A stretch of 49,042 nt of DNA from the NCBI GenBank assembly GCA_947627005.1, contig CANQUJ010000013.1, positions 1-49,042 on the forward strand. The letters are read 5' to 3'. Source of the stretch: an uncultured Clostridia bacterium (GTDB lineage: Bacteria > Bacillota > Clostridia > Oscillospirales > Ruminococcaceae). The notes below the pieces were generated by a model. It ran no database searches and was not told where the DNA came from. It saw only the letters and a list, made by a program, of their open reading frames with translations. Positions 23,395-42,950 of the stretch are shown piece after piece (position 1 is the stretch's first letter; every line of letters starts with the position of its first letter). Position numbers and translations under genes: made by a program.

Positions 23395-24054
23395 GTGAAA
23401 ACTATACTTATAATCGACGATGACGTCTATATCGGCGACATGCTCTCCGAGGCGCTCGGACAGGAGGGATATGCCGTGATGAGGGCGTATTCGGGGACGG
23501 AGGCGCTTTTGATACTCGAATCAAAGCGGCCCGACCTTATTCTGCTCGATTTAATGCTGCCGGGGCTTTCGGGCGAGGAAATTCTGCCGAAGATAAAGGA
23601 TATTCCGGTCATCGTTTTGTCGGCGAAAGCTGACGCGGAATCAAAGGTAAATCTTCTTTTGGGCGGGGCGCAGGATTACGTCACAAAGCCGTTTAATCTG
23701 AACGAGCTTGCCGCGCGGATAGCCGTCAGACTTAGAAACCTGCCGGATGGCGGCGGGAAAATTTTAGAATACGACGGAATCGTTTTAAACACCGAAACGC
23801 ACTCGGCGGAAGTCTGCGGAGCGGCGGTAAAGCTCACCCGGACGGAATACGCGATCTTAAAGCTTTTGATGCAGAAACCGTCGTCGGTATTCACGAAAAC
23901 GCAGCTTTTGGATAAAATCTCGGCCGACACCCCCGACTGCACCGACAGCTCGCTTAAAATTCACATCTCTAACCTTCGGCGAAAGCTTCGCGAGCCCTCG
24001 GGAAAGGACTATATCGAGGCGGTCTGGGGAATAGGCTTTAAGCTGAAAAAATAA
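23395..24054 (+). CDS. OmpR-family response regulator
   Basis: 219 residues. The receiver domain has the acidic pocket D8-D10, phospho-acceptor Asp52 in LILLDLMLPG, Ser76 and Lys98 (VTKPF). The C-terminal winged helix has LTRTEYAILKLL and HISNLRRKL, ending GIGFKLKK. No histidine kinase gene is adjacent, so its partner is elsewhere or lost. The start is GTG with GGAGGAGTTTGA upstream. It faces an ABC exporter operon across three phased repeats that are likely its binding sites. Confidence 0.93.
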   Translation: MKTILIIDDDVYIGDMLSEALGQEGYAVMRAYSGTEALLILESKRPDLILLDLMLPGLSGEEILPKIKDIPVIVLSAKADAESKVNLLLGGAQDYVTKPFNLNELAARIAVRLRNLPDGGGKILEYDGIVLNTETHSAEVCGAAVKLTRTEYAILKLLMQKPSSVFTKTQLLDKISADTPDCTDSSLKIHISNLRRKLREPSGKDYIEAVWGIGFKLKK

Positions 24055-24065
24055 TTTTGAAGAAA

Positions 24066-24112
24066 TCTTAACCCCTTTCTTAACCGCTTTCTTAACCTTT
24101 TTCGGGTATTAT
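24066..24112 (+). promoter_or_regulatory. Three phased direct repeats ahead of the ABC operon
   Basis: TCTTAACC occurs at 24066-24073, 24078-24085 and 24090-24097, exactly 12 bases apart, followed by a TATTAT -10 box at 24107-24112. No good -35 is seen; the last repeat occupies that region. This is the layout expected of an OmpR-family activated promoter. Confidence 0.7.
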
Positions 24113-24156
24113 TTTCTTCGGGAAGACCCGACTTTTTCAGAAAAAGGAGAAATTTT

Positions 24157-25062
24157 ATGGAATACGTTTTAACGGCAAATTCGCTTTATAAAGACTACGG
24201 AAAGTTCCGGGCGCTTTCGGGGCTTTCGATGAAGGTCCCAAAGGGCTCGATCTACGGCTTCGTCGGTAAAAACGGCGCCGGAAAAACCACGCTTATACGC
24301 ATCATCTGCGGGCTTCAAAGCCCGAACCTCGGCGACTATTCTCTCTACGGGATAGAAAACCGCAGCCCGAAGATATCAAAATCCCGAAGAAGAATGGGCG
24401 CGGTGGTCGAAACGCCGTCGATCTATCTCGATATGTCCGCGGTCGAAAACCTTAAGCAGCAGTATCGGATCTTGGGGCTGCCGTCGTTTCAAGGGATCGA
24501 CGAGATTTTAAAGCTCGTCGGGCTCGAATCGACCGGGAAAAAGAAGGCGAAGAACTTCTCGCTCGGCATGCGCCAGCGGCTCGGGATAGCCATCGCCCTT
24601 TGCGGAAGCCCCGATTTTTTGGTGCTCGACGAGCCGGTCAACGGCCTCGACCCGCAGGGAATCGTCGAGATAAGAGAGCTTATTTTAAAGCTGAACCGCG
24701 AGAAAAACATCACCGTTTTAATTTCGAGCCACATCTTGGACGAGCTTTCTAAGCTTGCGACACACTACGGATTTATCGACGGCGGAAAGATGATAAAAGA
24801 AATTTCCGCCGAGGAGCTTGAAGCGGCGTGCAGAAAGTGCATGAGGATAGAGGTCACAAGCGCGCCCGCCCTCGCGAGGGTTTTGGACGGAATGAAGGTT
24901 GAATATAAAATCCTCTCCGACACCGAGGCGGACGTCTATGCAAAGCTTAACATAACCGCGCTGACCAACGCCCTTTCGGCCGAGGGCTGCGAGCTCGTCT
25001 CGGTCGCCGAGCGGGACGAAAGCCTTGAGAGCTATTATATAAGCCTCGTCGGCGGAAAGTGA
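24157..25062 (+). CDS. ABC transporter ATP-binding protein (BcrA/NatA type)
   Basis: 301 residues. Walker A GKNGAGKTT is at residues 37-45, Q-loop near VVETPS, signature FSLGMRQRL, Walker B FLVLDEPVNGLDP and switch SSHILDE. Residues beyond 220 form the C-terminal extension common in antibiotic or lantibiotic exporters. It powers the three ABC-2 permeases that follow. The likely substrate is an antimicrobial peptide or another envelope-active compound, inferred from family and from the regulator. AAAAAGGAG precedes the ATG. Confidence 0.93.
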   Translation: MEYVLTANSLYKDYGKFRALSGLSMKVPKGSIYGFVGKNGAGKTTLIRIICGLQSPNLGDYSLYGIENRSPKISKSRRRMGAVVETPSIYLDMSAVENLKQQYRILGLPSFQGIDEILKLVGLESTGKKKAKNFSLGMRQRLGIAIALCGSPDFLVLDEPVNGLDPQGIVEIRELILKLNREKNITVLISSHILDELSKLATHYGFIDGGKMIKEISAEELEAACRKCMRIEVTSAPALARVLDGMKVEYKILSDTEADVYAKLNITALTNALSAEGCELVSVAERDESLESYYISLVGGK

Positions 25063-25070
25063 GGCAGAAA

Positions 25071-25952
25071 ATGAGAAATCTTTTATCGGCCGATTTCAGC
25101 CGCCTGTTTAAAAAGAAGCTTTTTTGGGTGATGACTCTCGCCCTGCTCGCCTACTCGGTTATTTCGACCTGCGACAACGCCTTGCAAACCGTCGCCGAGC
25201 CGGAGCATTATTCAAATCGGTCTCCCGAATCAATTTGTTTCGACGAGGGCCCTGTCGTTCTGATGATGATACCCGTCTTCGCCTCGCTGTTTATCGGGAC
25301 GGAGTTTTCGGACGGAACGATGAGGAACAAAATCGTCGTCGGCAGCAAGCGCGAACAGATCTACCTCGCGAATTTCATAACCGTCGCCGCGGCGTCGCTC
25401 GTCTTCTGCGCGGCTTGGCATATCGGGGCGCTCACCGTGCTGCCGATTCTCGGACTCTGGAGAGTCGGCGTTTTGGGCTGGCTGCTGTTGGTAATTAAAA
25501 GCGCGCTGTTCTGCGTTGCGTTTTCGGCGATGATCTGCCTTATAAGTCATATAATCACCAACAAGGCCGCAGTCGCGGTGTTCGAGATAGTCTTCGCGCT
25601 CGCGGTGCTTATGTGCGGGAGCGTTTTATACAACAGCCTTTTAGAGCCCGAGACGGTATCGAGCGGCGTGACCATCACAAGCGACGAAAACGGCAACATG
25701 GTAATGGATCCTATCGAACCTTACCCGAACCCCGAGTATATCCCCGAACCGCAGAGAACGGCGTATAAAAACGTTCTGAATGTGCTGCCGAGCGGGCAGG
25801 CGATACTTTTGGCGAACGTCTCGGACGCGGAGAAAGAGAATCTCGACCTCGACCTTGAAACGCCGTATTATTCATACTGCGCCTCTGCGGGGATAACCGT
25901 TGTTTTTACGGCGCTCGGGGCGGCGATCTTCAGGAAAAAAGACCTTAAATAG
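25071..25952 (+). CDS. ABC-2 type permease 1
   Basis: About 293 residues with six hydrophobic segments. The permease-family motif FSDGTMRNKIVVGSKREQIYLAN is present near residue 80. The first 20 residues (NLLSADFSRLFKKKLFWV) are cytosolic and basic. The ATG at 25071 has GAGG 6 bases upstream; a GTG at 25059 overlapping the ATPase stop is less likely. Paralogue of the next two genes, forming the exporter channel with them. Confidence 0.88.
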   Translation: MRNLLSADFSRLFKKKLFWVMTLALLAYSVISTCDNALQTVAEPEHYSNRSPESICFDEGPVVLMMIPVFASLFIGTEFSDGTMRNKIVVGSKREQIYLANFITVAAASLVFCAAWHIGALTVLPILGLWRVGVLGWLLLVIKSALFCVAFSAMICLISHIITNKAAVAVFEIVFALAVLMCGSVLYNSLLEPETVSSGVTITSDENGNMVMDPIEPYPNPEYIPEPQRTAYKNVLNVLPSGQAILLANVSDAEKENLDLDLETPYYSYCASAGITVVFTALGAAIFRKKDLK

Positions 25953-25963
25953 GCGGTGGAGCT

Positions 25964-26830
25964 ATGCGGAATCTTGTTTTTGCGTGTTTTAAAAAATATC
26001 TCGCATCGGCGGAGCTTAAAATCGGCTCGGCGATTTCGCTCGCGGCGGGGATAATCTGCGGGCTTATTTTCAAAAATAGCGCTTCGTCGGCGGCTCTCGC
26101 GGCGGTCGCGCCGGCGGCCGCAAGCGTTGCGGCGGCGGTTATGAACATCGCAAAAGAGTGGGAATTTCGCACCTTTGCGAACAAGCTTATTATCGGCCAC
26201 ACGAAGGTTAAAATTTTCTTCTCGGAGCTTATTGCGGCGCTTTCGGCCGGCGCGGCGATATACGCGCTTTTCGGCGCGGGGTTTGCGGCGGCCTCGCCTA
26301 AAATCATCTTCGGGCCGAATCTTCCGGCAATCCTGCGGATCTCCGCGCTTATGGCCATTGCGGGGCTAAGCCTTTGCGCGATCTCCTCCGCGATAAGCTT
26401 TGTCTGCAAGACGCACAATTCCGCGCTGGTTATAAGCTTCGCCGCGATTTTTATTTTGTTTTTCCTCTCGGAGCCGATAAGCGAGTTCGTCTATTCAAAC
26501 GAAATCCAAAGTCAAATTTATGAAAGCTACTATTCCGGCCTTGCCGCCGACTCCGCTTCCGGCGGATATATCGACCCGGCGACCGGGATAGAGCTCGCGG
26601 CGGCGGATTATGTTCCGACGAGGGTTATAAAGCTTGCGAAGGCGGCCTATGCGATAAACCCGATCGGCGCGCTCGACCTTTACGCCAACGAGCTTTTGCC
26701 CTATTTAGAGGGCGGCCTCCCCGACCCATGGAGCCGCTATCCGAGGGCGCTGCCGCTATGCTCTTTCGGGCTGATCTCTGCGGCTGCGGGCTTTGGCGCG
26801 GCGGTCTTTCACAAAAAAGACGTAAAATAG
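25964..26830 (+). CDS. ABC-2 type permease 2
   Basis: 288 residues, six predicted membrane spans. The family motif is degenerate here: EWEFRTFANKLIIGHTKVKIFFSE replaces SDGTxRNK. It is Ala-rich and the most divergent of the three paralogues. It ends with VFHKKDVK, matching the tails of its neighbours (FRKKDLK, FRRKNVD), which supports descent by duplication. GGTGGAG precedes the ATG. Confidence 0.87.
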   Translation: MRNLVFACFKKYLASAELKIGSAISLAAGIICGLIFKNSASSAALAAVAPAAASVAAAVMNIAKEWEFRTFANKLIIGHTKVKIFFSELIAALSAGAAIYALFGAGFAAASPKIIFGPNLPAILRISALMAIAGLSLCAISSAISFVCKTHNSALVISFAAIFILFFLSEPISEFVYSNEIQSQIYESYYSGLAADSASGGYIDPATGIELAAADYVPTRVIKLAKAAYAINPIGALDLYANELLPYLEGGLPDPWSRYPRALPLCSFGLISAAAGFGAAVFHKKDVK

Positions 26831-26841
26831 GGGGAAATTTT

Positions 26842-27624
26842 ATGGCTAATCTTCTTTCGGCGGGGTTCGCAAGGCTTAAAAAAAGCCGGCTGTTTTGGCT
26901 TTTCATCGCGGCCGAGACGGCCTGGGGCGCGCTTTTGGCGTGGATATTATATTACTTCGGAAACATTAGGGAGAACCTCTCTCTTTCTGTTTTTATGCCG
27001 ATGTTTTATCTCTGCGTCGCCGAGGCGGTTTTCTGCGGGTTTTTCATCGGGGTGGACTATTCCGACGGCACGATTCGCAATAAAATCGCGGTCGGACATT
27101 CGCGGGAAAAAATATATCTCTCGAACCTGATAATATGCGCCTCGGCCGGGTCGGCGGTTATGTTCGCGCATATGGCGGCTTTCTTTGTCGCGGGGTTTTT
27201 GCTTATAGGCCCGGCGGTCTTTCCGACCGTCGCCGCGACGGTCTATTTATGCGCGTTTTTAAACGTCGTCGCCTACGCCTCGCTTTTTACGATGATATCC
27301 ACGCTCTGCAAAAAGACCGCCTCTGCGACGGTCGCGAACATTTTTCTCTCGCTCGGGCTGATAGTCTCGGGGATTTACGCCTATGCCTTTTACCATCAGC
27401 CCGAATTTTTCGCCGACGGCAGCGCCAACCGCAGATACGTCGGCGGGGCGGCGAGGGCGCTTTTGGGCTTTTTTGACGCAATTCTCCCCTCTTCCTCGGC
27501 GCTCGACGTTATGTCGCGCGGCTCGCTTTTCGTCTGCCTAAGGATTATCCTCTGCTCGCTCGCCGAGGCGGCGATCTTCGCCCTTATCGGCATTTGGGCG
27601 TTTAGAAGGAAAAACGTCGACTGA
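26842..27624 (+). CDS. ABC-2 type permease 3
   Basis: 260 residues, six predicted spans. It starts NLLSAGFARLKKSRLFWLF, close to permease 1, and holds the motif YSDGTIRNKIAVGHSREKIYLSN. The ATG at 26842 follows a GGGGGAAA site. Last gene of the operon; downstream come purine-rich repeats and a terminator. Three permeases with a single ATPase suggest alternative or heteromeric channels. Confidence 0.88.
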   Translation: MANLLSAGFARLKKSRLFWLFIAAETAWGALLAWILYYFGNIRENLSLSVFMPMFYLCVAEAVFCGFFIGVDYSDGTIRNKIAVGHSREKIYLSNLIICASAGSAVMFAHMAAFFVAGFLLIGPAVFPTVAATVYLCAFLNVVAYASLFTMISTLCKKTASATVANIFLSLGLIVSGIYAYAFYHQPEFFADGSANRRYVGGAARALLGFFDAILPSSSALDVMSRGSLFVCLRIILCSLAEAAIFALIGIWAFRRKNVD

Positions 27625-33673: not shown

Positions 33674-33701
33674 AAACGGCATGATTTCGGTCACGCCGTT
33701 T
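33674..33701 (+). terminator. Possible terminator after the symporter gene
   Basis: AAACGGC and GCCGTTT arms followed by a T-rich CTCTTTGTTTTT. It overlaps the last codons of the convergent recombinase. Confidence 0.45.
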
Positions 33702-35202
33702 CTCTTTGTTTTTCCGCTTGCAAAAGCTCATTTATGGGTATGAAATCCACAAGGTCGTACTGAATCCTTATCTTTTGCTTTTTCTTGCCGCTTGACTTGT
33801 CGGGCTTCTCAACGTAAATCGCCTTGACAAGCTCGCGTAAAGCATAAGGGGTCAATTCTTTCAATCCATCGTATTTTTTTGCCTTTTTAATGAACAACTC
33901 CAGATTTTCAGTCTGCCGCTCCTGTTCTGCAATTTCTGCCTGCAGCTCGGAAATATCCTTGCGAAGTTGTGCTTGCTCGTCCTCGTACTGTTCGCTCATC
34001 ATTGCAAACCGCTCGTCACTTAATTTTGCCGCCACGTTGTCCTCGTAAATCTTGACAAAGAGCCTATCAAGTTCTGCAAGGCGTTTCTCTTTTTGAGTCA
34101 GTTTACGCTTAGCAGATTTAATGATTTCAGCACTTTTAAGCGACATCTTTTCAGTCATAACCTGCCGAAAATAATTCTCATGAGCCGTAACATACGAAAT
34201 CACAACTTGTAAATTATTCAGCACAAGCTGCTCCAAAACGACCGCTCGGATAAAGTGAATGGAACAACTCCCGGTGTTGCTTTTGTAATTCCCGCAGACA
34301 AAATGGTCATGCCGCTTTTCAAAGTCTTTAGTCGTGCAATACCTCATTTTCGCTCCGCAATCCTCGCAATACATCAGGCCTGAAAACATACTGCTTTTGC
34401 CCGTTCGTGATCTGCGATGGCGTTGTTTGCGAATCTCTTGCACCTTTTTGAATACATCAGGTTTAATAATTTCGGGGTGAGTATTTTCAAAAACCGCCCA
34501 ATTTTCCTCGGGGTTGTCGCGCTGTTTCTTATCCCAAATTGAATTGGTATAAGTCTTGAAATTGACAGTGCAGCCTGTGTATTCGCGCCGTTCGAGAATA
34601 TGAACGACGGTGTTCGCATTCCAATGGTAAAGGTCTGAACTGAAACTTCTTGGACTTAACCCGTGTGCATTTTTGTATGCCGACGGGTTTGGTACTTTTG
34701 CAGCAGTCAGAGCCTTTGCAATCTGCATCGGGCCGCGCCCTTCCATACACATCTGGAAAATCTGCTTAACAACTTCCGCAGATTCCTCGTCAACTTCCCA
34801 TGCTCCGTTGTCGCCCTTTTTATAACCGTATGGAATGTTCGTGGTCAAAGGCACTCCACGAGTTCCTTTCGCCTTTTGAACGGCTCGGATTTTACGGCTG
34901 GTGTCCTTCGCGAAGAACTCGTTGAACCAATTCTTTATACCCGCCATGTCGTTGTCCGTACTGTTCGGATCGATGGTGTCGAAGTGGTCATTAATTGCGA
35001 TGTAGCGCACGCCGTATTTCGGGAAAGTGAAGTTGATGTACCGCTTCGCCGAATCCATAATGATAAATTCGCTTTCATGCTGCTTTCGGAATTCCTCCCT
35101 CGCTCGGTCGGACTTCAAAGTTTTATACATTTTTTTGCCAAAAAGCAGGTATCCAATCAAAAAATTTTTTGCTTTCTCACTAAACGGACATTTTCCGGTC
35201 AA
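33691..35202 (-). CDS. Large serine recombinase missing its catalytic N-terminus (probable pseudogene)
   Basis: 503 residues. Homology to large serine recombinases begins only at YINFTFPKYGVRYIAINDHFD, in the middle of the resolvase domain, and then runs to the end: FAKDTSRKIRAV, the recombinase domain, the zinc ribbon (CEDCGAKMRYC, HFVCGNYKSNTGSC) and the coiled coil. The first 100 or so residues with the catalytic Ser are absent. In their place are about 50 residues (MYKTLKSDRAREEFRKQHES) that look like the tail of a relaxase. It is therefore probably an inactive chimera made by deletion in an integrative element. Confidence 0.8.
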   Translation of the reverse strand: MTGKCPFSEKAKNFLIGYLLFGKKMYKTLKSDRAREEFRKQHESEFIIMDSAKRYINFTFPKYGVRYIAINDHFDTIDPNSTDNDMAGIKNWFNEFFAKDTSRKIRAVQKAKGTRGVPLTTNIPYGYKKGDNGAWEVDEESAEVVKQIFQMCMEGRGPMQIAKALTAAKVPNPSAYKNAHGLSPRSFSSDLYHWNANTVVHILERREYTGCTVNFKTYTNSIWDKKQRDNPEENWAVFENTHPEIIKPDVFKKVQEIRKQRHRRSRTGKSSMFSGLMYCEDCGAKMRYCTTKDFEKRHDHFVCGNYKSNTGSCSIHFIRAVVLEQLVLNNLQVVISYVTAHENYFRQVMTEKMSLKSAEIIKSAKRKLTQKEKRLAELDRLFVKIYEDNVAAKLSDERFAMMSEQYEDEQAQLRKDISELQAEIAEQERQTENLELFIKKAKKYDGLKELTPYALRELVKAIYVEKPDKSSGKKKQKIRIQYDLVDFIPINELLQAEKQRETA

Positions 35203-35833: not shown

Positions 35834-35866
35834 ACAAGAAAAATCCACGATTAAGGAATGATTTAT

Positions 35867-36793
35867 ATGGCGCTATTTAACATCGGGAATTTCATAAAAC
35901 AGCGGCGGGAGGAGCTCGGGATCACGCAGGCGGAGCTTGCGGAGGGGCTGTGCTCGCTGCCGACCCTTTCTCGAATCGAAAACGGCAATAACGTCCCGCA
36001 CGGAAACACTTTGAGGGCGCTTTTGCAGCGGCTCGGCTATTCCGACGCGCTGATGCTTCTGCCCGCAAGCCGAGAGGAGTTTGAGATCACTCGGTTGCAG
36101 GTGAAAATCCGGCAGCTTTACAACACCCGCGACCGCGAGGGCGCAAGAGAGCTGTTTGCAAAGCTCGGCGAATATAAAGACTTTTTCTCGGTGAGCGACC
36201 GGCAATTTTACGAAGTTATGCTCACTGTTTTCTATAATAAAGATTTTACGAGCGAAGAAATTCTTGACAAGCTCGAAAGCGCTATGCGTTTGACTCACCC
36301 CGACTACGGCGTTGACAATCTTCCGAGAATTATTACATACGAAGAAGCTACGGCTCTTAACAATATCGCCATCATTTATTCCGAAATGGGAAAGACCGAC
36401 TACACGATAAAAGTCCTTTATCATCTAAAGGACTTTTACGAGCACGACGTATTAGACGTCGGCGAATCCATGCGCGCGCTCCCGACAGTAATGTATAATT
36501 TGTCCAAATTCCTCGGGCTGTCGGGAAGATATGACGAGTGCATTGATATTTGCAAACAATGCATCAACATCATGAAAACTTATCATCGAACAGACCAATT
36601 GTCTCTTACCTATTATAATTTAGCATGGGCATCAGTAAGGCGAAATTGCGAAGACGATCTTAAGACGGCAAAGCAAGCTGCTATAAAATCATATTGCCTA
36701 TCACTTGCACTTGAAGAGAGACCAGAATTTCTTGAAAAGCTGAAAAAATTTTTAATAGATAATTTTAATGAGAATATAGTTTTAATCGCCTAA
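35867..36793 (+). CDS. XRE/TPR regulator of RRNPP (Rgg/PlcR-like) type
   Basis: 308 residues. N-terminal XRE helix-turn-helix (FIKQRREELGITQAELAEG, then LCSLPTLSRIENGNNVP) as in PlcR/Rgg proteins, where CS-xxTLSRIE is typical. The remaining 240 residues are helical repeats (ATALNNIAIIYSEMGKTDYT, ALPTVMYNLSKFLGLSGRYDE, LSLTYYNLAWASVRRN) resembling TPRs that bind a peptide pheromone. It overlaps a convergent secreted-peptide gene by 12 bases. It likely controls the divergent promoters at 37.0-37.1 kb. The ATG at 35867 suits the AAGGAA site; an earlier ATG overlaps it. Confidence 0.85.
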   Translation: MALFNIGNFIKQRREELGITQAELAEGLCSLPTLSRIENGNNVPHGNTLRALLQRLGYSDALMLLPASREEFEITRLQVKIRQLYNTRDREGARELFAKLGEYKDFFSVSDRQFYEVMLTVFYNKDFTSEEILDKLESAMRLTHPDYGVDNLPRIITYEEATALNNIAIIYSEMGKTDYTIKVLYHLKDFYEHDVLDVGESMRALPTVMYNLSKFLGLSGRYDECIDICKQCINIMKTYHRTDQLSLTYYNLAWASVRRNCEDDLKTAKQAAIKSYCLSLALEERPEFLEKLKKFLIDNFNENIVLIA

Positions 36794-36976
36794 TATTTTT
36801 GAGGCATCTTCATCGCACATGGGCGAGACATCGGAATTTTCCTCGCAGGATTCTTCTTGAGTAAAATCCCGGGTTTCCAAAACCGTATCGTTGGGAACCG
36901 GTACTGCGGTTACTACCGTGAGGACGGCCATCAATGATAGCAGGGCTGAAAGAAGTTTGAAAATTTTTGATTTCAT
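36782..36976 (-). CDS. Small secreted peptide, candidate signal precursor
   Basis: 64 residues. A basic start (MKSKIFK) and hydrophobic stretch LLSALLSLMAVLTVVTA form a signal peptide, with likely cleavage after Ala24. The mature part is acidic with two cysteines (C44 and C54) and ends CDEDASKILGD. A strong AGGAGG is 7 bases upstream. It is convergent with the RRNPP-type regulator, overlapping its last four codons. Its promoter abuts the 40-bp palindrome. By analogy with Rgg/SHP and PlcR/PapR pairs it could supply the regulator's peptide ligand, but the sequence matches no pheromone family I know. Confidence 0.7.
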   Translation of the reverse strand: MKSKIFKLLSALLSLMAVLTVVTAVPVPNDTVLETRDFTQEESCEENSDVSPMCDEDASKILGD

Positions 36977-37007
36977 ATGGGTTCCTCCTAAAGATAGATT
37001 TATGATG

Positions 37008-37036
37008 ATTATACTATGGATTTCTTCTTTTGACTA
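37008..37036 (-). promoter_or_regulatory. Promoter of the secreted peptide gene
   Basis: TAGTCA, 17 bases, consensus TATAAT on the minus strand. The -35 overlaps the left tip of the palindrome by two bases. Confidence 0.65.
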
Positions 37037-37074
37037 TATCATTTCGTGAAAATAAATTTTCACGAAATGATATA
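37035..37074. promoter_or_regulatory. 40-bp perfect palindrome between divergent promoters
   Basis: Arms of 19 bases, TATATCATTTCGTGAAAAT and its exact complement, around a central AA. It lies between two outward-facing promoters and touches the -35 region of each, so it is probably a shared operator. The adjacent XRE/TPR regulator is the natural candidate to bind it. Confidence 0.8.
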
Positions 37075-37100
37075 GACTTATGGATTTCATGAGGTATAAT
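37073..37100 (+). promoter_or_regulatory. Promoter of the first Cys-rich precursor
   Basis: TAGACT, 16 bases, consensus TATAAT. The -35 overlaps the right tip of the palindrome by two bases, mirroring the leftward promoter. Confidence 0.6.
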
Positions 37101-37201
37101 ATACTTGTAGGAAATGATTTTTTGCTAAGGAAAATTTGTTTTCTATCAAAGTCGTCTTAAATTTATATATAATAAAATTAGAAAGGAGATAAAATAAAGA
37201 A

Positions 37202-37375
37202 ATGGAAATTATTACTCCAATTCCTTTACCCGGAAACCAACCTAACGGATGCTCGACAGAGGCGCATATGCCGCCACATCATGGTGATGGCGGTGGCGGC
37301 GATGGCTGTTTCTACTGCTCCGATCTTTCTTCCGGAGGTTGCATTTGCATATTCCAATGCTATTATTTTACCTAA
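37202..37375 (+). CDS. Cys-rich RiPP precursor peptide 1
   Basis: 57 residues. The leader begins MEIITPIPLPGNQPNGC and continues STEAHMPPH; it is nearly identical to that of the peptide at 39457. The core after residue 27 differs: a Gly/Asp run (GDGGGGDG), then CFYC, CIC and a final C with aromatic residues (QCYYFT). Six cysteines at 17, 36, 39, 47, 49 and 53. Conserved leader with variable Cys-rich core, plus a radical SAM/SPASM gene nearby, fits a thioether-type RiPP. The ribosome site GAAAGGAG is shared with the second copy, though the spacing here is a long 13 bases. Confidence 0.82.
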   Translation: MEIITPIPLPGNQPNGCSTEAHMPPHHGDGGGGDGCFYCSDLSSGGCICIFQCYYFT

Positions 37376-37380
37376 ACATA

Positions 37381-37422
37381 TCAATTATGGGCATATGGTT
37401 ATTTTCATATGCTCATAATTGA
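37381..37422 (+). terminator. Long hairpin after precursor 1
   Basis: 17-base arms (37381-37397 and 37406-37422) pair fully except for one G-T, starting 6 bases after the precursor stop. There is no T-run, so it more likely stabilises or partly limits the transcript ahead of the lipoprotein gene. Confidence 0.7.
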
Positions 37423-37447
37423 CAGAATTGGCAGATGATTCAATACC

Positions 37448-38092
37448 ATGAAAAAAAGAATACTACTGTTTACAACCATTTTGGCAGCACTGATACTGTT
37501 GGTATCCTGCGCTCTTCCAACTGAAGAGCCGCTCGCGGCCGAAGACCCTTCCGCACTGACCGAGGTGGAAACGGAGAGGGACACGCCGATTTTGGATTTT
37601 TCACAATACGAATATCGGTATACAAACGCCCGCGAAAGCAACTGGGAGCGCGATATCGTATATCTTGCGAACACATTTTTCAATAAGCACGCAAAGCTGA
37701 TGCAGAAAGAGATTCGCGCGGGGATAAAATTTGAAGACAGCATATACGTCGATATGCGCGACAAGTCAGTTAAAAAAGAATTTTCCGACGAAATATACGG
37801 AGTTTTGAACGATCTGCCGAAACTTACCGACAGCGAAGTGATCTGTCGGCTCGCAAAGGCGGTCGCCCTGCTTGACGACGCGCATTCGGCGATAAGGCTT
37901 TCAAGTATCGTCGACTACGGCTTTAACAAAGTTTTTCCGTACAGATTCGCCGCGTTTCACACCGAGGACGGATACGAGCTTAGGACCGTAACGGTTCCCG
38001 CAGAGCAAAGCGAGATGCTGATGTCGCAGCTTGTCTCGATAAACGGCATTCCTGTCGAAGAAATCGCAAAAAGGTTGTCTGTGTATAGATAG
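37448..38092 (+). pseudogene. Truncated S41-type lipoprotein
   Basis: 214 residues. The lipoprotein signal ends LLVSC (Cys21). It matches the N-terminal half of the intact homologue at 39716: YEYRYTNARESNWERDIVYLA, ALLDDAHSA, and LVSINGIPVEEIAKRL, then stops at VYR. The S41 catalytic part found in the homologue (DFRDNGGG and the VSAAV serine region) is missing. The break lies exactly where the radical SAM frame begins, so a deletion is likely. Ribosome site weak. Confidence 0.8.
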
Positions 38093-38147
38093 ACTTGCAG
38101 ATGGAAGAATACTAATCTATAATACCTTTACTGGAATTTGCGGTATT

Positions 38148-39389
38148 ATGGACAAGAAAACTCAGGCTGTATATAAAGATATAGAAATAGCAGATATTGA
38201 CTTGATAATTGATGCTGATTCAAAAGAAAATGTACTCACTTTAATTAAAGCTGGATATATTGTTGATGCAGAAAAGGATGAACTTGCTACAGTTAAATTG
38301 GGTAGAGAACTTGGTATGCATAATCGTTTATCTTTGTCGTTGACGATTGCGCCTACGATGGCCTGCAATATGCAGTGCCCATACTGCTATGAAAATAAAG
38401 ACGGTCGGGTAATGACTGCAGAAATTCAAGACATGCTTGTAGAATTTGTAAAAACCCATTTGTGTGCTTCTCCATCAATAAATACGCTTAGCGTTAATTG
38501 GTATGGAGGGGAACCCTTGCTGCAGAAAAAGATCATATACAATTTGTCAGAAAAGTTCCTTAATATCTGCAGCGAGCGTGGAATTCAATACCGTGCAAGT
38601 ATGGTAACTAATGGATCATTGCTTGATGCGGAAACCGCTAAAAAGTTGGTAGAAGATTGTAAAGTCAGTAATGTGCAAATTACTATTGATGGCATGCCAA
38701 AGCGACATAATATGCGAAGAATATTTGTCGACGGAACTGATAGTTTTGACGTGATTGTTAAAAACATTGAGGACTGCCGTGACTTTTTGCCAATCAGCGT
38801 TCGTGTAAATGTAGACAGAGAAAATATTAGTGATGTCGAATCACTACTCAAGTATTTTGTTGAGGAAAAAAGATGGAAAGGCAATCCGCATATATACATC
38901 GCGCCGGTTAAAAACTATACAGCTTCATGCAAGCAAGAATGTTTTCAAAATCAGGAATTTGCAGATGCGAGCAGAGAGTTTAATAATTCCTACTATGCGG
39001 TTGATAGAGACATTGTTACATCGCGTCTGTTTCAACATCGTCCAATAGTATTTTGCGGAGCGGAATGTGTAGAAAACTATGTGATAGATCCAGAAGGCTA
39101 TTATTATAATTGTTGGTTACTAATTGGCGATAAGAGAAGAAATAGCGGTCATATTAGCAAGCCCTATACTGTAAGTTCGGAATACTATAAATGGTTATCT
39201 ATAGGGATACCTCAGAAATGTGAATCTTGTGAATATCTTCCAATGTGTGTTGGAGGATGTCCGTATTACCGAGTTGACCATATTAATGAACCAACTTGTC
39301 CGAATTCATATTATACATATAAAGATAACCTACGCTTAGCGTATTTTGATTATGTTGAGCAAAAAAAGAAAAAAGCGATAATGGTATAA
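38148..39389 (+). CDS. Radical SAM/SPASM peptide maturase, start codon unclear
   Basis: 413 residues from the first in-frame ATG. The SAM-binding [4Fe-4S] motif is CNMQCPYC (C73, C77, C80), with WYGGEPLL at 118. SPASM cysteines at 303, 307, 322, 358, 361, 367, 371 and 384 would hold two auxiliary clusters. Such enzymes crosslink Cys sulfur to carbon atoms in RiPP precursors. Homology seems to extend upstream of this ATG (LADGRILIYNTFTGICGI, from about 38094) with no good start codon or ribosome site, so the N-terminus is probably lost by deletion. Clearly AT-richer than its neighbours, suggesting transfer. Confidence 0.85.
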   Translation: MDKKTQAVYKDIEIADIDLIIDADSKENVLTLIKAGYIVDAEKDELATVKLGRELGMHNRLSLSLTIAPTMACNMQCPYCYENKDGRVMTAEIQDMLVEFVKTHLCASPSINTLSVNWYGGEPLLQKKIIYNLSEKFLNICSERGIQYRASMVTNGSLLDAETAKKLVEDCKVSNVQITIDGMPKRHNMRRIFVDGTDSFDVIVKNIEDCRDFLPISVRVNVDRENISDVESLLKYFVEEKRWKGNPHIYIAPVKNYTASCKQECFQNQEFADASREFNNSYYAVDRDIVTSRLFQHRPIVFCGAECVENYVIDPEGYYYNCWLLIGDKRRNSGHISKPYTVSSEYYKWLSIGIPQKCESCEYLPMCVGGCPYYRVDHINEPTCPNSYYTYKDNLRLAYFDYVEQKKKKAIMV

Positions 39390-39456
39390 TGTGCTTAAAT
39401 CGTATATAATTGTGATGAACAATATATATAAAATATTACAGAAAGGAGTATGCAAT

Positions 39457-39621
39457 ATGGAAATTATTACCCCCATTCCCTTACCCGGAAGCCAGCCTAA
39501 CGGATGTTCGACAGAGGCGCATATGCCGCCACATTATGACGATGGTGGCTGTCAGATACACGGAGGTTGTCCATTTTCTGGCTGTCTACCTATAATATGT
39601 CCAAAGAATAATGGTGGCTAA
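39457..39621 (+). CDS. Cys-rich RiPP precursor peptide 2
   Basis: 54 residues. The leader MEIITPIPLPGSQPNGC, then STEAHMPPH, equals that of precursor 1 except for Ser12. The core (YDDGGCQIHGGCPFSGC, then LPIICPKNNGG) differs almost entirely, with five cysteines at 17, 32, 38, 43 and 48, spaced five to six residues apart in the core. AAAGGAG lies 9 bases upstream. It directly follows the radical SAM gene and is followed by a hairpin and an S41 lipoprotein. Confidence 0.85.
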   Translation: MEIITPIPLPGSQPNGCSTEAHMPPHYDDGGCQIHGGCPFSGCLPIICPKNNGG

Positions 39622-39650
39622 ATGATGTTTGTATGCCCTGCTGGTTTGCT

Positions 39651-39693
39651 GCCGTTAGAGCATACACTACATAGCTAACGGCTATATATTTTT
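39651..39693 (+). terminator. Hairpin after precursor 2
   Basis: GCCGTTAG (39651-39658) pairs with CTAACGGC (39675-39682), followed by TATATATTTTT. Probably a leaky terminator that sets a high precursor-to-lipoprotein ratio. Confidence 0.65.
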
Positions 39694-39715
39694 CACGATA
39701 GCAAGGGTGTGTACT

Positions 39716-41203
39716 ATGAAGTATTTGATTTTTGTACGAACTGTTTTAGTTTTGCCAGTTATGTTGATGCTACTCACATCCTGTTTGAAAGCTAAACCAT
39801 CCACACCATACCAAAGTGTTAATTCACAAGATGCAAATACAACAATCATCGTTGACGATGAATATACTGCGCCTCCCCTGAATCTTGCAAGCTATGAATA
39901 CCGCTATGACGAGGGCCGCGAGCGGGATTGGGAGCACGATATCATCTATCTCGCAAAACAGGCGGTTTATAAGCACCCGAAGCTTACCGGCGGAATCTTC
40001 AGGACATACGTCGCCGAAGATTACAACCTTTCCGGCGGCCTCGATCAAGCGGTTTACAGCAGGGAATTTACCGATATGGTCTACGACGAAGATTTGTTAA
40101 ACGCCTTTCTTAAAGAAGTCGACCGGATTGTTTCCGAGATCCCGAATCTTTCGGACGACGAGATCTCTTTTGAGATCGTCAAGCTTATAGCCCTTCTCGA
40201 CGACGCCCACTCTTGGGCTGAATTGCCGCAAAAGGGCGTTTTCCCCCTTTCGTTCGAGGCTTTTTATACCGACAGCGGTATCGAAGTTCGGCTTGTAAGC
40301 GCCCCCGCCGAGCGGGAAGACCTGCTTTTCTCAAAGCTTGTTAAAATAAACGAAACGCCGGTCGACGAGGTTTTAGACCGATTGTTTGAATACGTCAGCG
40401 CAGAGAACGATTATCTCAACCTGCGGACCGCAGTCAGGCCGGTCGACCCTTGGCTTTCAAACGCGCTTTTGCTTAAGTCCGCCGGAATTTCGGAGCGTGA
40501 TTCTATAACCGCCGACTATACCTTCGAGCTTGACAACGGCGAAGAAATAACCTATACCGCGACCGAAACGACGAAGGAAGGGCTCGCCGAGATCGAAATA
40601 ATCAACAAGGCGTTTTATAACACCGACGCGCTGATGTATAAAAACAAGCAGCTGCGATATTGGTATGAATACCTCCCGGAGGACAACATCGTATATATAA
40701 AAATAAACTCGGTCGTCGAGAGGGAAGACCTTCCTTGGAGCGAGCTTTTTAAGCAGATTTTAGAGACCGAGGCCGCCGCCGAGGGCGCGCAAAAGATAGT
40801 CTTTGATTTTCGGGACAACGGCGGCGGGTTTTTCACCGATTTCGGGCCGCTTATCGACGAGCTTAACGGCCGCGAGACCGACGGAGTATATATAGTCGTC
40901 GCCGGAAACAGCGTTTCCGCCGCGGTGACCATACCCTATACTTTAAAAAAGAGAATCGACGGCGCGATTTTAATAGGCGAGCCCGCCGGCCAGCCGGTCA
41001 ATTACTTCCCCTTTTGGGACGCAAGATACACGCCTTCGCTGCCGACCCACGGCAATTCGTTCAGAATCGCCGACCAGTATCTCGTCCAGGATATCGACTA
41101 CCCCTACGACGCGCTTATGCCGGATATAACCGTATACCAAACGGTTGAGGACTATAAAAACGGAGTCGATACGGTGATGGAAGAGATAAGGGGGAGGAAA
41201 TGA
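39716..41203 (+). CDS. S41-type peptidase-like lipoprotein
   Basis: 495 residues. The signal ends LMLLTSC (Cys23), so it is anchored outside the cell. The N-terminal helical domain matches the truncated copy at 37448. The C-terminal part is S41/tail-protease-like: IVYIKINSV, IVFDFRDNGGGFF, then VVAGNSVSAAVTIPYTLKK where the catalytic Ser and Lys are expected, and IGEPAGQPVNYF. It could trim the exported RiPP leader or degrade competing peptides; the role is inferred from position. The ATG at 39716 follows AAGGG; a GTG nine bases earlier is less likely. Confidence 0.83.
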   Translation: MKYLIFVRTVLVLPVMLMLLTSCLKAKPSTPYQSVNSQDANTTIIVDDEYTAPPLNLASYEYRYDEGRERDWEHDIIYLAKQAVYKHPKLTGGIFRTYVAEDYNLSGGLDQAVYSREFTDMVYDEDLLNAFLKEVDRIVSEIPNLSDDEISFEIVKLIALLDDAHSWAELPQKGVFPLSFEAFYTDSGIEVRLVSAPAEREDLLFSKLVKINETPVDEVLDRLFEYVSAENDYLNLRTAVRPVDPWLSNALLLKSAGISERDSITADYTFELDNGEEITYTATETTKEGLAEIEIINKAFYNTDALMYKNKQLRYWYEYLPEDNIVYIKINSVVEREDLPWSELFKQILETEAAAEGAQKIVFDFRDNGGGFFTDFGPLIDELNGRETDGVYIVVAGNSVSAAVTIPYTLKKRIDGAILIGEPAGQPVNYFPFWDARYTPSLPTHGNSFRIADQYLVQDIDYPYDALMPDITVYQTVEDYKNGVDTVMEEIRGRK

Positions 41204-41525
41204 GCCGGCATGAGGCAAACGCTATGAAAACCCGATTAAGGCTTTTCGCGATATTGGCGGCGGGGCAGATTAAAAGATAAGCGTAAACAAGCGGATTTCT
41301 ATCTTGTCGTTGAAGAATTTGCTTGCCGAAAAAGGCCGTAATGCATTTGCAGAGCGGAAAGCAACAGTGGATAACGGCGAGAAAAGAAAAAAGCATGAAG
41401 CAGGGAAGGACCCTACTTCGTGCTTTTTGATTGCCAAATTCCGCTTGATGGGTGCCGTAAATTGAATTTTTTGATTGAAAACTTCTTTATGGGCACCTGC
41501 CATAGCCGGGGGTTTTTGTTATGTA
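41204..41525. other. Non-coding tail with terminator
   Basis: An 18-codon frame at 41224 (MKTRLRLFAILAAG) resembles the start of a lipoprotein signal and stops at once; it may be a remnant. A hairpin at 41388-41428 (AAAGCATGAAG against CTTCGTGCTTT, with inner AGGG/CCCT) ends in TTTTT. Nothing else is recognised. Confidence 0.5.
41388..41428 (+). terminator. Terminator after the S41 lipoprotein
   Basis: AAAGCA-GAAG and CTTC-TGCTTT arms with an inner AGGG/CCCT pairing, followed by a T-run. Confidence 0.6.
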
Positions 41526-42950
41526 TCAGAGTATCTCGACATCTTTGGTTTTGACTATTTCTATCTTAGAGACGGCCTCGCGAATCTCTTTTACGAGCCT
41601 GTCGACCTGCTCGGGGCAGCGGCCGATATAAAGCTTCGGCTCTAAGACCGCTTCCATCTCGCGCTCGGTCATCGAAAACTCGGGGTGGGAGGCAAGCCGC
41701 TTTAAAAGGTCGCAGCTCTCGCCCTCTTTCATTCGGGCCGAGGCCTCCATCGAGCAGACGCGGATTATTTCGTGGAGCTTCTGGCGGTCGCCGCCGCGCT
41801 TTACGCCCTCCATCATAAGGTTCTCGGTCGCGATGAACGGGAGATATTCCCTTACCGCCTTTTCGACCATTTTTTCGTTGACGTGCATGCCGTCGGTGAC
41901 GTTCTGCGCAAGCCTTAAGATCGCGTCGGCGCAAAGATAGCCCTCGGGCAATGAAATTCTTCTGTTCGCAGAGTCGTCGAGGGTGCGCTCAAGCCACTGG
42001 GTCGAGGCGGTCATCGGGGCGTTCAGCGCGTCGGCCATAAGATACCTCGAAAGCGAGCAAATTCTCTCGCAGCGCATCGGGTTGCGCTTATAGGCCATCG
42101 CCGACGAGCCGATCTGGTTCTTTTCAAACGGCTCTTCGACCTGCCGATCATGCTGCAAAAGCCTTAAGTCGTTCGCCATTCGGTAGCAGCTTTGGGCTAT
42201 CGAGGAGAGAACGTTTAATATCCTCGAATCGAATTTCCGGGGGTAGGTCTGCCCCGAGACGGTGAAGCATTTTTTAAAGCCGAACTCCGCCGAGATCATT
42301 CTGTTCATCTCGTCGATCTTTTCGCCGTCGCCCTCGAAAAGCTCCATAAAGCTGGCTTCGGTGCCGGTCGTCCCCCGGCAGCCGAGGAATTTAAAGCTGT
42401 CGATGACGAAGTCGAGCTCCTCGAGGTCGGAGAGAAAATCCTGCGCCCAAAGCGACGCCCTCTTTCCGACGGTCACGAGCTGGGCGGGCTGGTAGTGGGT
42501 GTATCCGAGGGTCGGGGTAGATTTATACTTTTCCGCGAAGTCGGCGAGGTTTTTTAATACCTTCGCAATCTCTCCGCGAAGATAGACGAGGCCGTCGCGA
42601 TAGATGATAAGGTCGGCGTTGTCGGTGACGTAGCAGCTCGTCGCGCCGAGGTGGATAATTCCCGCAGCCGAGGGCGCCGCCTTGCCGTAGGTATAGATAT
42701 GCGCCATAACGTCGTGGCGGACCTCTTTTTCGCGGGCGTGCTCGGTCTCGTAGTCTATGTCTTCGATGTGGGCTTCAAGCTCTTTTACCTGCTCATCGGT
42801 GATCGGCAGGCCGAGCTTCGACTCCGCCCTTGCGAGCGCCACCCAAAGGCGCCGCCAAGTCTGAATCCTTTTGTCCATCGAAAAAAGGTTGAGCATATAT
42901 TCCGAGGCGTAGCGCGAAGAAAGCGGGGATTCGTAGATATTAGTGGGCAT
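41526..42950 (-). CDS. purB: Adenylosuccinate lyase
   Basis: 474 residues. Acts twice in purine synthesis, cleaving SAICAR and adenylosuccinate to release fumarate. The fumarase/aspartase superfamily signature IGSSAMAYKRNPMRCER is intact, with the catalytic Ser in the SS pair. HLGATSCYVTDNAD and GYTHYQPAQ supply the substrate and general-acid His. GAAAGGAAG lies before the ATG. It follows purA on the same strand across a 142-base gap occupied by a GC-rich palindrome cluster. Confidence 0.97.
   Translation of the reverse strand: MPTNIYESPLSSRYASEYMLNLFSMDKRIQTWRRLWVALARAESKLGLPITDEQVKELEAHIEDIDYETEHAREKEVRHDVMAHIYTYGKAAPSAAGIIHLGATSCYVTDNADLIIYRDGLVYLRGEIAKVLKNLADFAEKYKSTPTLGYTHYQPAQLVTVGKRASLWAQDFLSDLEELDFVIDSFKFLGCRGTTGTEASFMELFEGDGEKIDEMNRMISAEFGFKKCFTVSGQTYPRKFDSRILNVLSSIAQSCYRMANDLRLLQHDRQVEEPFEKNQIGSSAMAYKRNPMRCERICSLSRYLMADALNAPMTASTQWLERTLDDSANRRISLPEGYLCADAILRLAQNVTDGMHVNEKMVEKAVREYLPFIATENLMMEGVKRGGDRQKLHEIIRVCSMEASARMKEGESCDLLKRLASHPEFSMTEREMEAVLEPKLYIGRCPEQVDRLVKEIREAVSKIEIVKTKDVEIL

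Follow-up and report, generated by a model that had tools for sequence, protein, structure and literature searches.

Does a regulator of an uncultured Clostridia bacterium use a secreted peptide to switch on the synthesis of a modified peptide, and where does the switch end and its cargo begin? The question is raised by a locus at positions 35858–41203 of a 49,042-nt stretch of DNA (the window) from a member of the Ruminococcaceae (contig CANQUJ010000013.1, GenBank assembly GCA_947627005.1). The initial annotation had proposed a peptide-signaled locus for a ribosomally synthesized and post-translationally modified peptide (RiPP) made by a radical S-adenosylmethionine (SAM) enzyme. This is still the best reading, and we lean modestly toward it: the locus would be a quorum-sensing switch that drives a two-core radical SAM RiPP. 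The computed support comes from a recurrent receptor/peptide pair, a conserved palindrome, conservation of the leader and the family of the enzyme. The first two give the signaling half a firmer footing than the initial annotation knew of, whereas the regulator is not shown to be an Rgg protein and the S41-type lipoprotein is an unproven partner.

The locus is bounded by the remnant of a serine recombinase gene (33691–35202, minus strand) and by purB (ending at 41526, minus strand). Between them lie, in this order, the regulator gene (+), a 64-aa open reading frame (ORF; −), the palindrome, precursor 1 (+), a first S41-type gene, S41a (+), the radical SAM gene (+), precursor 2 (+) and a second S41-type gene, S41b (+). 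When the leader, the enzyme and S41b were used as queries, no other sampled genome showed the full gene set. The regulatory part consists of the following features.

35858–36793, plus strand: RRNPP-like receptor/regulator with an N-terminal HTH_3 domain and C-terminal tetratricopeptide (TPR) repeats.
36976–36782, minus strand: 64-aa secreted small ORF, candidate signaling-peptide precursor, acidic, overlapping the regulator tail to tail.
37032–37077, no strand: 42-bp palindrome, candidate operator, with 20 paired bases on each side at 37034–37075 and a 2-nt center.
37036–37008, minus strand: promoter-like site toward the signal ORF, TAGTCA-17-TATAAT, consensus match only.
37073–37100, plus strand: promoter-like site toward precursor 1, TAGACT-16-TATAAT, consensus match only.

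Is the regulator a peptide receptor? Its architecture, a helix-turn-helix (HTH) domain followed by TPR repeats, is that of RRNPP receptors, with Pfam matches to HTH_3 (47.4 bits, cut-off 23), TPR_12 (32.7 bits, cut-off 30.1) and, below the cut-off of 26.5, RNPP_C (21.8 bits). A sequence search against PDB matched both domains to PlcR (E = 0.0024, residues 8–253) and PrgX (E = 0.11); single-domain matches to a designed HTH protein (E = 5e-7) and to the TPRs of kinesin light chain (E = 0.0013) outscored PlcR. No Rgg model was among the Pfam or NCBIfam matches of the regulator at E ≤1. Judged by these matches, it appears to be PlcR/PrgX-like and is not shown to be an Rgg protein. Streptococcal Rgg/SHP systems had initially been named as the nearest known arrangement. 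The convergent, overlapping signal gene does correspond to the layout of group III Rgg/SHP (PMC13361665, in excerpt).

The neighboring ORF, whose ATG has an AGGAGG sequence 7 nt ahead of it (by eye), bears on the same question. Orthologues of the regulator occur in two further genomes (94% in G148 and 90% in G870; G and L numbers denote the genomes and loci of our survey), and relatives were found in 20 of 80 genomes, 19 of which, our own included, belong to the same genus. The survey of regulator loci covered 30 loci with surrounding sequence, again including our own; further matches came without a locus. In half of the loci (15 of 30), a convergent small ORF of 35–110 aa overlaps the end of the regulator gene by 3–36 bp, under a filter that allowed 80 bp either way; each of these ORFs has a ribosome-binding site and begins with a hydrophobic segment. 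Such an ORF accompanies 4 of 129 other open frames of at least 250 codons in loci L136–L150, an imperfect control in that many of these frames are probably not genes. A conserved adjacent propeptide, the second hallmark of an RRNPP system, is thus present. At L110 (L140), too, a related ORF exists that was missed by the ribosome-site filter. Because the pairing persists even where the regulators are only about one third identical, there is strong support for the two genes being a receptor/propeptide system, and the early claim of an RRNPP-type regulator with a small secreted peptide upstream is confirmed.

Convergent secreted acidic peptides, each overlapping the tail of a regulator gene, were also seen across the genus (L112–L114, L116, L119–L121, L130, L133–L135), many of them ending in DY or EY near a Cys. 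They apparently form a large receptor/peptide family; we met no description of such a family, although no dedicated literature search was made.

How far does the switch extend? The palindrome separates the two divergent promoter-like sites. Its core occurs once in the 2.07-Mb genome and was equalled by none of 50 shuffles; consensus matches to promoters number 32 in the window versus 12.8 in shuffles. In the congener G148 (locus L136), a 92.5% match spans 35859–37077, covering the regulator, the small ORF and the palindrome, which stands at the same place, and ends at the palindrome. The genes beyond it in G148 encode a 135-aa secreted protein and lipoproteins, none of which has relatives among the cargo of our locus. 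At L138, the palindrome (88%) directly follows the regulator, with no signal gene, and related palindromes are present at L140 and L143. The palindrome at L143 is perfect, with 24-bp arms, and lies 264–312 bases past the regulator stop, which is the operator position; the signal gene there is apparently frameshifted (by eye). Palindromes of other sequence, equalled by no shuffle, were found at L108, L124, L127 and L132–L135 and may be terminators or repeats. A single Rfam match on the palindrome of our locus was below threshold and was discarded. In other cassettes of the genus, the neighbors are solute-binding lipoproteins together with ABC permeases at L139 and L140, and secreted proteins at L144, L145 and L148; the permeases and secreted proteins were recognized by eye.

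A bolder proposal, possible and in our view rather doubtful, is that receptor, signal gene and palindromic operator form a portable switch of the genus, with unrelated cargo swapped exactly at the operator. Here the switch would have taken up a RiPP whose precursor family is undescribed; a single radical SAM enzyme would modify both of its unlike cores, and an S41 lipoprotein at the surface would serve as a product-specific protease. The cargo itself comprises the following features.

37202–37375, plus strand: precursor peptide 1, 57 aa, with the shared 26-residue N-terminus and a Gly/Cys-rich core containing 5 Cys.
37381–37422, plus strand: RNA hairpin after precursor 1, a possible attenuator (z −6.0, 0 of 200 shuffles).
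37448–38092, plus strand: S41a, the 5′ part of an S41-type lipoprotein gene, 214 aa, truncated before the protease core, no Pfam match.
~38080–38092, plus strand: junction between the end of S41a and the start of radical SAM homology.
38148–39389, plus strand: radical SAM/SPASM enzyme, 413 aa from ATG38148 (PF04055), in a frame open from 38043 with homology from ~38085.
39457–39621, plus strand: precursor peptide 2, 54 aa, with the same N-terminus and a different core containing 4 Cys.
39716–41203, plus strand: S41b, a full-length secreted S41-type lipoprotein (PF03572), with lipobox LLTSC and motifs DDAHS, SVSAA and GEPAGQ (by eye).

Do the two peptides behave as precursors of a RiPP? As initially described, those at 37202 and 39457 combine near-identical first 26 residues with unlike Cys-rich cores: 25 of the 26 residues are the same and the cores align poorly. 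Of the changes in the 26 leader codons, 5 are synonymous and 1 is nonsynonymous (dN 0.017 and dS 0.36, the nonsynonymous and synonymous divergence), a bias with p ~0.004 under neutrality (17.3 synonymous and 60.7 nonsynonymous sites; synonymous share 0.24 used). In contrast, S41a and S41b are 39% identical over residues 9–226 of S41b, with a dN of 0.62 and a saturated dS of 3.4 (208 aligned codons). The leader is therefore maintained by selection, and the two units were not copied together recently. The leader copies are much younger than the S41 pair, or else have been homogenized. A recent tandem duplication of a precursor plus its S41 gene was rejected on the same grounds. A conserved leader with a variable core, encoded beside a modifying enzyme, is the combination that characterizes RiPP precursors, and it is found here. 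Precursor 2 has an AAGGAG sequence 8 nt ahead of its ATG (by eye). The hairpin initially noted after each peptide is significant only after the first; that after precursor 2 is not (z −1.05, 27 of 200 shuffles).

The enzyme stands between the two peptides at 38148–39389, as had been claimed. Its radical SAM domain scores 59.7 bits against PF04055 (cut-off 29.5) and carries the CX3CX2C motif (CNMQCPYC). Regular expressions for a SPASM-type cysteine pattern (CX9-15GX4C ... CX2CX5CX3C ... C) matched residues 327–346 and 382–408 of the upstream-extended protein; no Pfam SPASM model was listed for the enzyme at E ≤1. Its two top-scoring NCBIfam models are TIGR04334 (Clo7bot) at 263 bits (270 with the upstream residues, cut-off 600) and TIGR04463 at 237 bits (256 with the upstream residues, cut-off 525); against the PapB ranthipeptide maturase model NF047865 it scores 134 bits (cut-off 340). 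The best 25 of 66 matched NCBIfam models all score under their cut-offs. By these scores, the enzyme is best regarded as a divergent relative of the Clo7bot/TIGR04463 maturases and not as a member.

At E ≤1e-50 the enzyme is matched in 11 of 398 genomes of the phylum, our own included, and the 10 others hold relatives 31–36% identical to it; at E 1e-30 it is matched in 10 of 197 genomes of the family, again with our own. A genome-contig collection yielded 15 distant enzyme loci (best E 1e-8), and viral contigs yielded none. In a tree of 23 enzymes with long branches and open forks, ours could not be placed securely. We examined 21 related-enzyme loci (L065–L067, L082–L099), and seven of them (L066, L085, L089, L090, L091, L092 and L093) contain at least two small Cys-rich ORFs whose leader is shared (by eye). 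The multi-precursor loci of relatives are thus an organizational precedent and not a rule. At L091 (6020–6912) and L090 (8426–9060), which come from other families of the phylum, sets of three to four Cys-rich small ORFs with near-identical leaders stand beside the related enzymes. One of the enzyme's best relatives (33.6% identical) is encoded at L065 on p8, a 10-kb plasmid of Sarcina sp. JB2 (NZ_CP051762), a chimpanzee isolate, where its neighbor is an MFS transporter. The annotation shows no precursor there, though a frame of 43 codons upstream, at 1733–1864, encodes 4 Cys. A weak leader pattern, M-x(0-4)-[FWYHMI]-[ILVM], is present in all 26 hand-picked precursor N-termini, our own included, with a proline nearby in 20 of them; since the list was chosen by eye, the pattern is a lead and not a test.

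How would such a locus work? Peptide sensing, DNA binding, crosslink chemistry, export and the role of S41b are steps that we infer as follows. The product of the signal gene would be secreted, cut and re-imported, as is the way of the RRNPP group, and the RRNPP-like receptor would sense a peptide cut from the 64-aa product. The peptide-bound receptor would then act at the palindrome 37032–37077 on both promoters, as its position and conservation suggest. Because the palindrome lies between the promoters of the signal gene and of precursor 1, one operator would set both autoinduction and cargo expression. Expression of precursor 1, the enzyme and precursor 2 would follow, perhaps attenuated by the hairpin at 37381–37422, a step with partial support. 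Leader conservation and the loci of relatives suggest that the single enzyme would modify both cores in trans through the common leader, most likely by forming Cys-based (thioether) crosslinks, as expected of such enzymes on Cys-rich cores. S41b, more speculatively, might have the exported product as its substrate, which it would trim or, as NSR does with nisin, degrade for self-protection.

Parts of this arrangement are familiar. Clo7bot systems (TIGR04334 maturase, for example on the Paraclostridium bifermentans plasmid NZ_CP079738) likewise combine one radical SAM/SPASM enzyme with several short precursors that have a conserved leader and variable Cys-rich cores, and their enzyme is homologous to ours over 96% of the query at 33.6% identity. 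However, our enzyme reaches 270 bits against the cut-off of 600, the leaders are unrelated past the first residues, and our locus has a different regulator, an S41 lipoprotein and no ABC transporter. Streptococci are known to make radical SAM RiPPs under RRNPP control (excerpts of PMC8326336 and PMC13361665); streptide, tryglysin and streptosactin share with our locus an RRNPP-group pheromone receptor beside a radical SAM RiPP (PMC8326336, in excerpt). They differ in that our receptor is PlcR/PrgX-like, the signal precursor is a 64-aa acidic protein, the two precursors have unlike cores and the host is not a streptococcus. An RRNPP_detector survey reported, in the excerpted text, 196 candidate clusters adjoining RRNPP pairs, including adjacent receptor/propeptide pairs next to RiPP clusters, with clostridial hosts from the Clostridiaceae, Peptoniphilaceae and Tissierellaceae (PMC10075063); compared with that set, the boundary between switch and cargo is visible here at the level of single bases.

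What counts against a quorum-sensing switch driving a two-core RiPP concerns the leader and several single features, the S41 genes and, above all, the start of the enzyme. Relatives of the leader were found in none of the other 30 of 31 genomes of the genus, none of the other 196 of 197 genomes of the family, and no plasmid or viral contig. A search for the leader and its co-occurrence with SPASM enzymes and S41 lipoproteins, suggested at the outset, has thus been run, and the co-occurrence is that of one locus. Weak matches turned up in 78 of 197 family genomes (E ≤1) and 15 of 31 genus genomes (E ≤0.5), our own counted in both; beyond our two peptides, the best had E-values of 0.001 and 0.0045, respectively, and the leader motif was in none of 30 weak-match loci read on both strands. 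The nearest candidate, a 41-codon frame in G148 (L151) with some likeness and one Cys, lies over a terminator-like hairpin (by eye), has no relative of the enzyme or S41 within 3 kb and was set aside as chance. No paper on the string MEIITPI or on Clo7bot was found in the literature searched, and the early statement that a leader beginning MEIITPIPLPG matches no known class still holds for everything searched. In addition, 14 of the 21 related-enzyme loci lack a precursor set under a common leader, several having one candidate and others none. No palindrome at L139 beats shuffles, the AAGGAG sequence of precursor 1 lies 13 nt ahead of its ATG, a long spacing (by eye), and no transporter gene lies within the locus.

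Do the S41 genes belong to the RiPP at all? An S41-type lipoprotein had been annotated after each peptide, as a partner of the system. The gene after precursor 2 qualifies, scoring 24.1 bits against PF03572 (cut-off 24.0), with 47 of 165 profile positions aligned; a congener homologue reaches 25.2 bits on Peptidase_S41. In an alignment of S41b with S41a and relatives from G881, G004 (L100) and G230 (L101), the DDAHS, SVSAA and GEPAG regions fall on conserved columns. S41a, however, is only the N-terminal part of such a protein and stops before the protease core, so one of the two copies is truncated. That the S41 lipoproteins are ordinary surface proteases, chance cargo of the switch that neither helps to make the peptide nor gives resistance to it, has in our estimate not quite an even chance, and it is compatible with the locus being a switch-driven RiPP. 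In the fetched stretches of G881, G004 and G230, no relative of the enzyme, precursors, regulator or signal ORF stands beside the S41 gene; none of the 21 related-enzyme loci holds a relative of S41b; and other cassettes of the genus adjoin lipoproteins or secreted proteins of other kinds. But an S41-type gene follows each precursor, so that the pairing occurs twice here, and there is a precedent for an S41 protease that acts on a RiPP: the membrane-bound S41 peptidase SaNSR inactivates nisin by removing its last six residues (PMC4828448, in excerpt). Like NSR, S41b would be a membrane-associated S41 serine peptidase for a modified peptide, its catalytic Ser lying in a conserved motif with a His upstream (same excerpt); the two differ in that S41b is a lipoprotein whose cleavage activity is putative and that matched no PDB chain at E ≤1. 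Nisin was the only case joining S41 and RiPPs in the literature searched, and in the excerpted text of a review of RiPP leader proteases (PMC10885120), the 12 places covered, of 18, have S41 only inside DOI strings. Viral contigs held nothing similar to S41b. Given the relatives that stand without enzyme or peptides in three genomes, the absence from related-enzyme loci and the truncated copy, we regard the S41 lipoprotein as an unproven RiPP partner.

Is the enzyme still made? Its frame is open upstream of ATG38148 to 38043, and residues from ~38085 (IDRLADGRILIYNTFTGI...) align with the N-terminus of relatives. The end of S41a and the start of enzyme homology fall within ~12 bp. All 22 aligned relatives (an alignment that omits L099, a copy with an internal stop) begin with a strand of the form S-x-[YF]-[NV] (by eye); our enzyme lacks it, because the DNA at that place is the end of S41a. 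The simplest reading would be one deletion that took the 3′ part of S41a together with the first codons of the enzyme, although the junction may also be an assembly error. The ribosome-binding site ahead of ATG38148 is weak (by eye), and translation could start there or at a non-canonical codon farther up. With its first codons lost at the junction, production of the enzyme is uncertain and the locus may be decaying, which is the main doubt about a functional RiPP. In its full form, this alternative holds that the enzyme start was lost in the deletion that joined S41a with the radical SAM gene, that the peptides are unmodified or unmade and that the cargo is the remnant of a RiPP cluster. We consider it unlikely. 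It would account for the close junction and the missing strand, and it fits two further observations: a relic of the S41b 3′ end on another contig and an upstream serine recombinase with no match to the catalytic resolvase domain. Yet the enzyme frame is intact over 413 codons, as are both precursors and S41b; purifying selection acts on the leader, and translation is still possible from either start. The relic itself, 90 nt with 93% identity to S41b, lies in the same genome (G000:C5:22960-23055; L062 8964-9053) and suggests earlier copies or gene shuffling; its neighbors are a MATE-like transporter and a toxin/antitoxin pair of RelE-like type (both by eye).

It is highly improbable that the two peptides are unmodified, disulfide-bonded secreted or antimicrobial peptides and that the radical SAM enzyme serves another purpose: this would fit the finding of no leader relative beside another radical SAM enzyme in the collections searched, but the precursor N-termini show no recognizable secretion signal (by eye), the best-scoring families of the enzyme are peptide maturases and it lies directly between the precursors.

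The surroundings of the locus add some observations. The recombinase gene retains Recombinase, zinc-ribbon and DUF4368 domains, and recombinase-like pieces also occur near the regulator at L137 and L139, which hints at mobile islands. On the right, homology in G044 and G148 stops at 41524–41526, adjoining purB; a clean empty site was not found, the left neighbor being absent from the fetched stretches of both genomes. About 10 kb from the locus, a response regulator gene is followed by genes for an ABC ATPase and three ABC-2-like permeases (23395–27624, plus strand; by eye), which might form a peptide exporter or an immunity transporter. A defense system was considered and rejected, as PADLOC gave only viperin-type and HTH-type matches.

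RRNPP-controlled radical SAM RiPPs and several precursors under one leader are known already, and the system is not categorically new. New here are a family of precursors for which no relatives were found, the pairing of a PlcR-like receptor with an acidic propeptide encoded convergently, and the position of the cargo boundary at the operator. If a quorum-sensing switch driving a two-core RiPP is indeed what this locus encodes, peptide-pheromone control of radical SAM RiPPs would not be confined to streptococci but would extend to Clostridia-like bacteria, with a PlcR-like receptor. The locus would also add a precursor family without relatives in the searched collections and a testable S41 lipoprotein partner. 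The common inheritance of receptor, signal gene and operator would be readable at base level, so that the cargo could be listed for the remaining species of the genus. The signal peptide, for its part, would offer a simple way to switch on an otherwise silent product.

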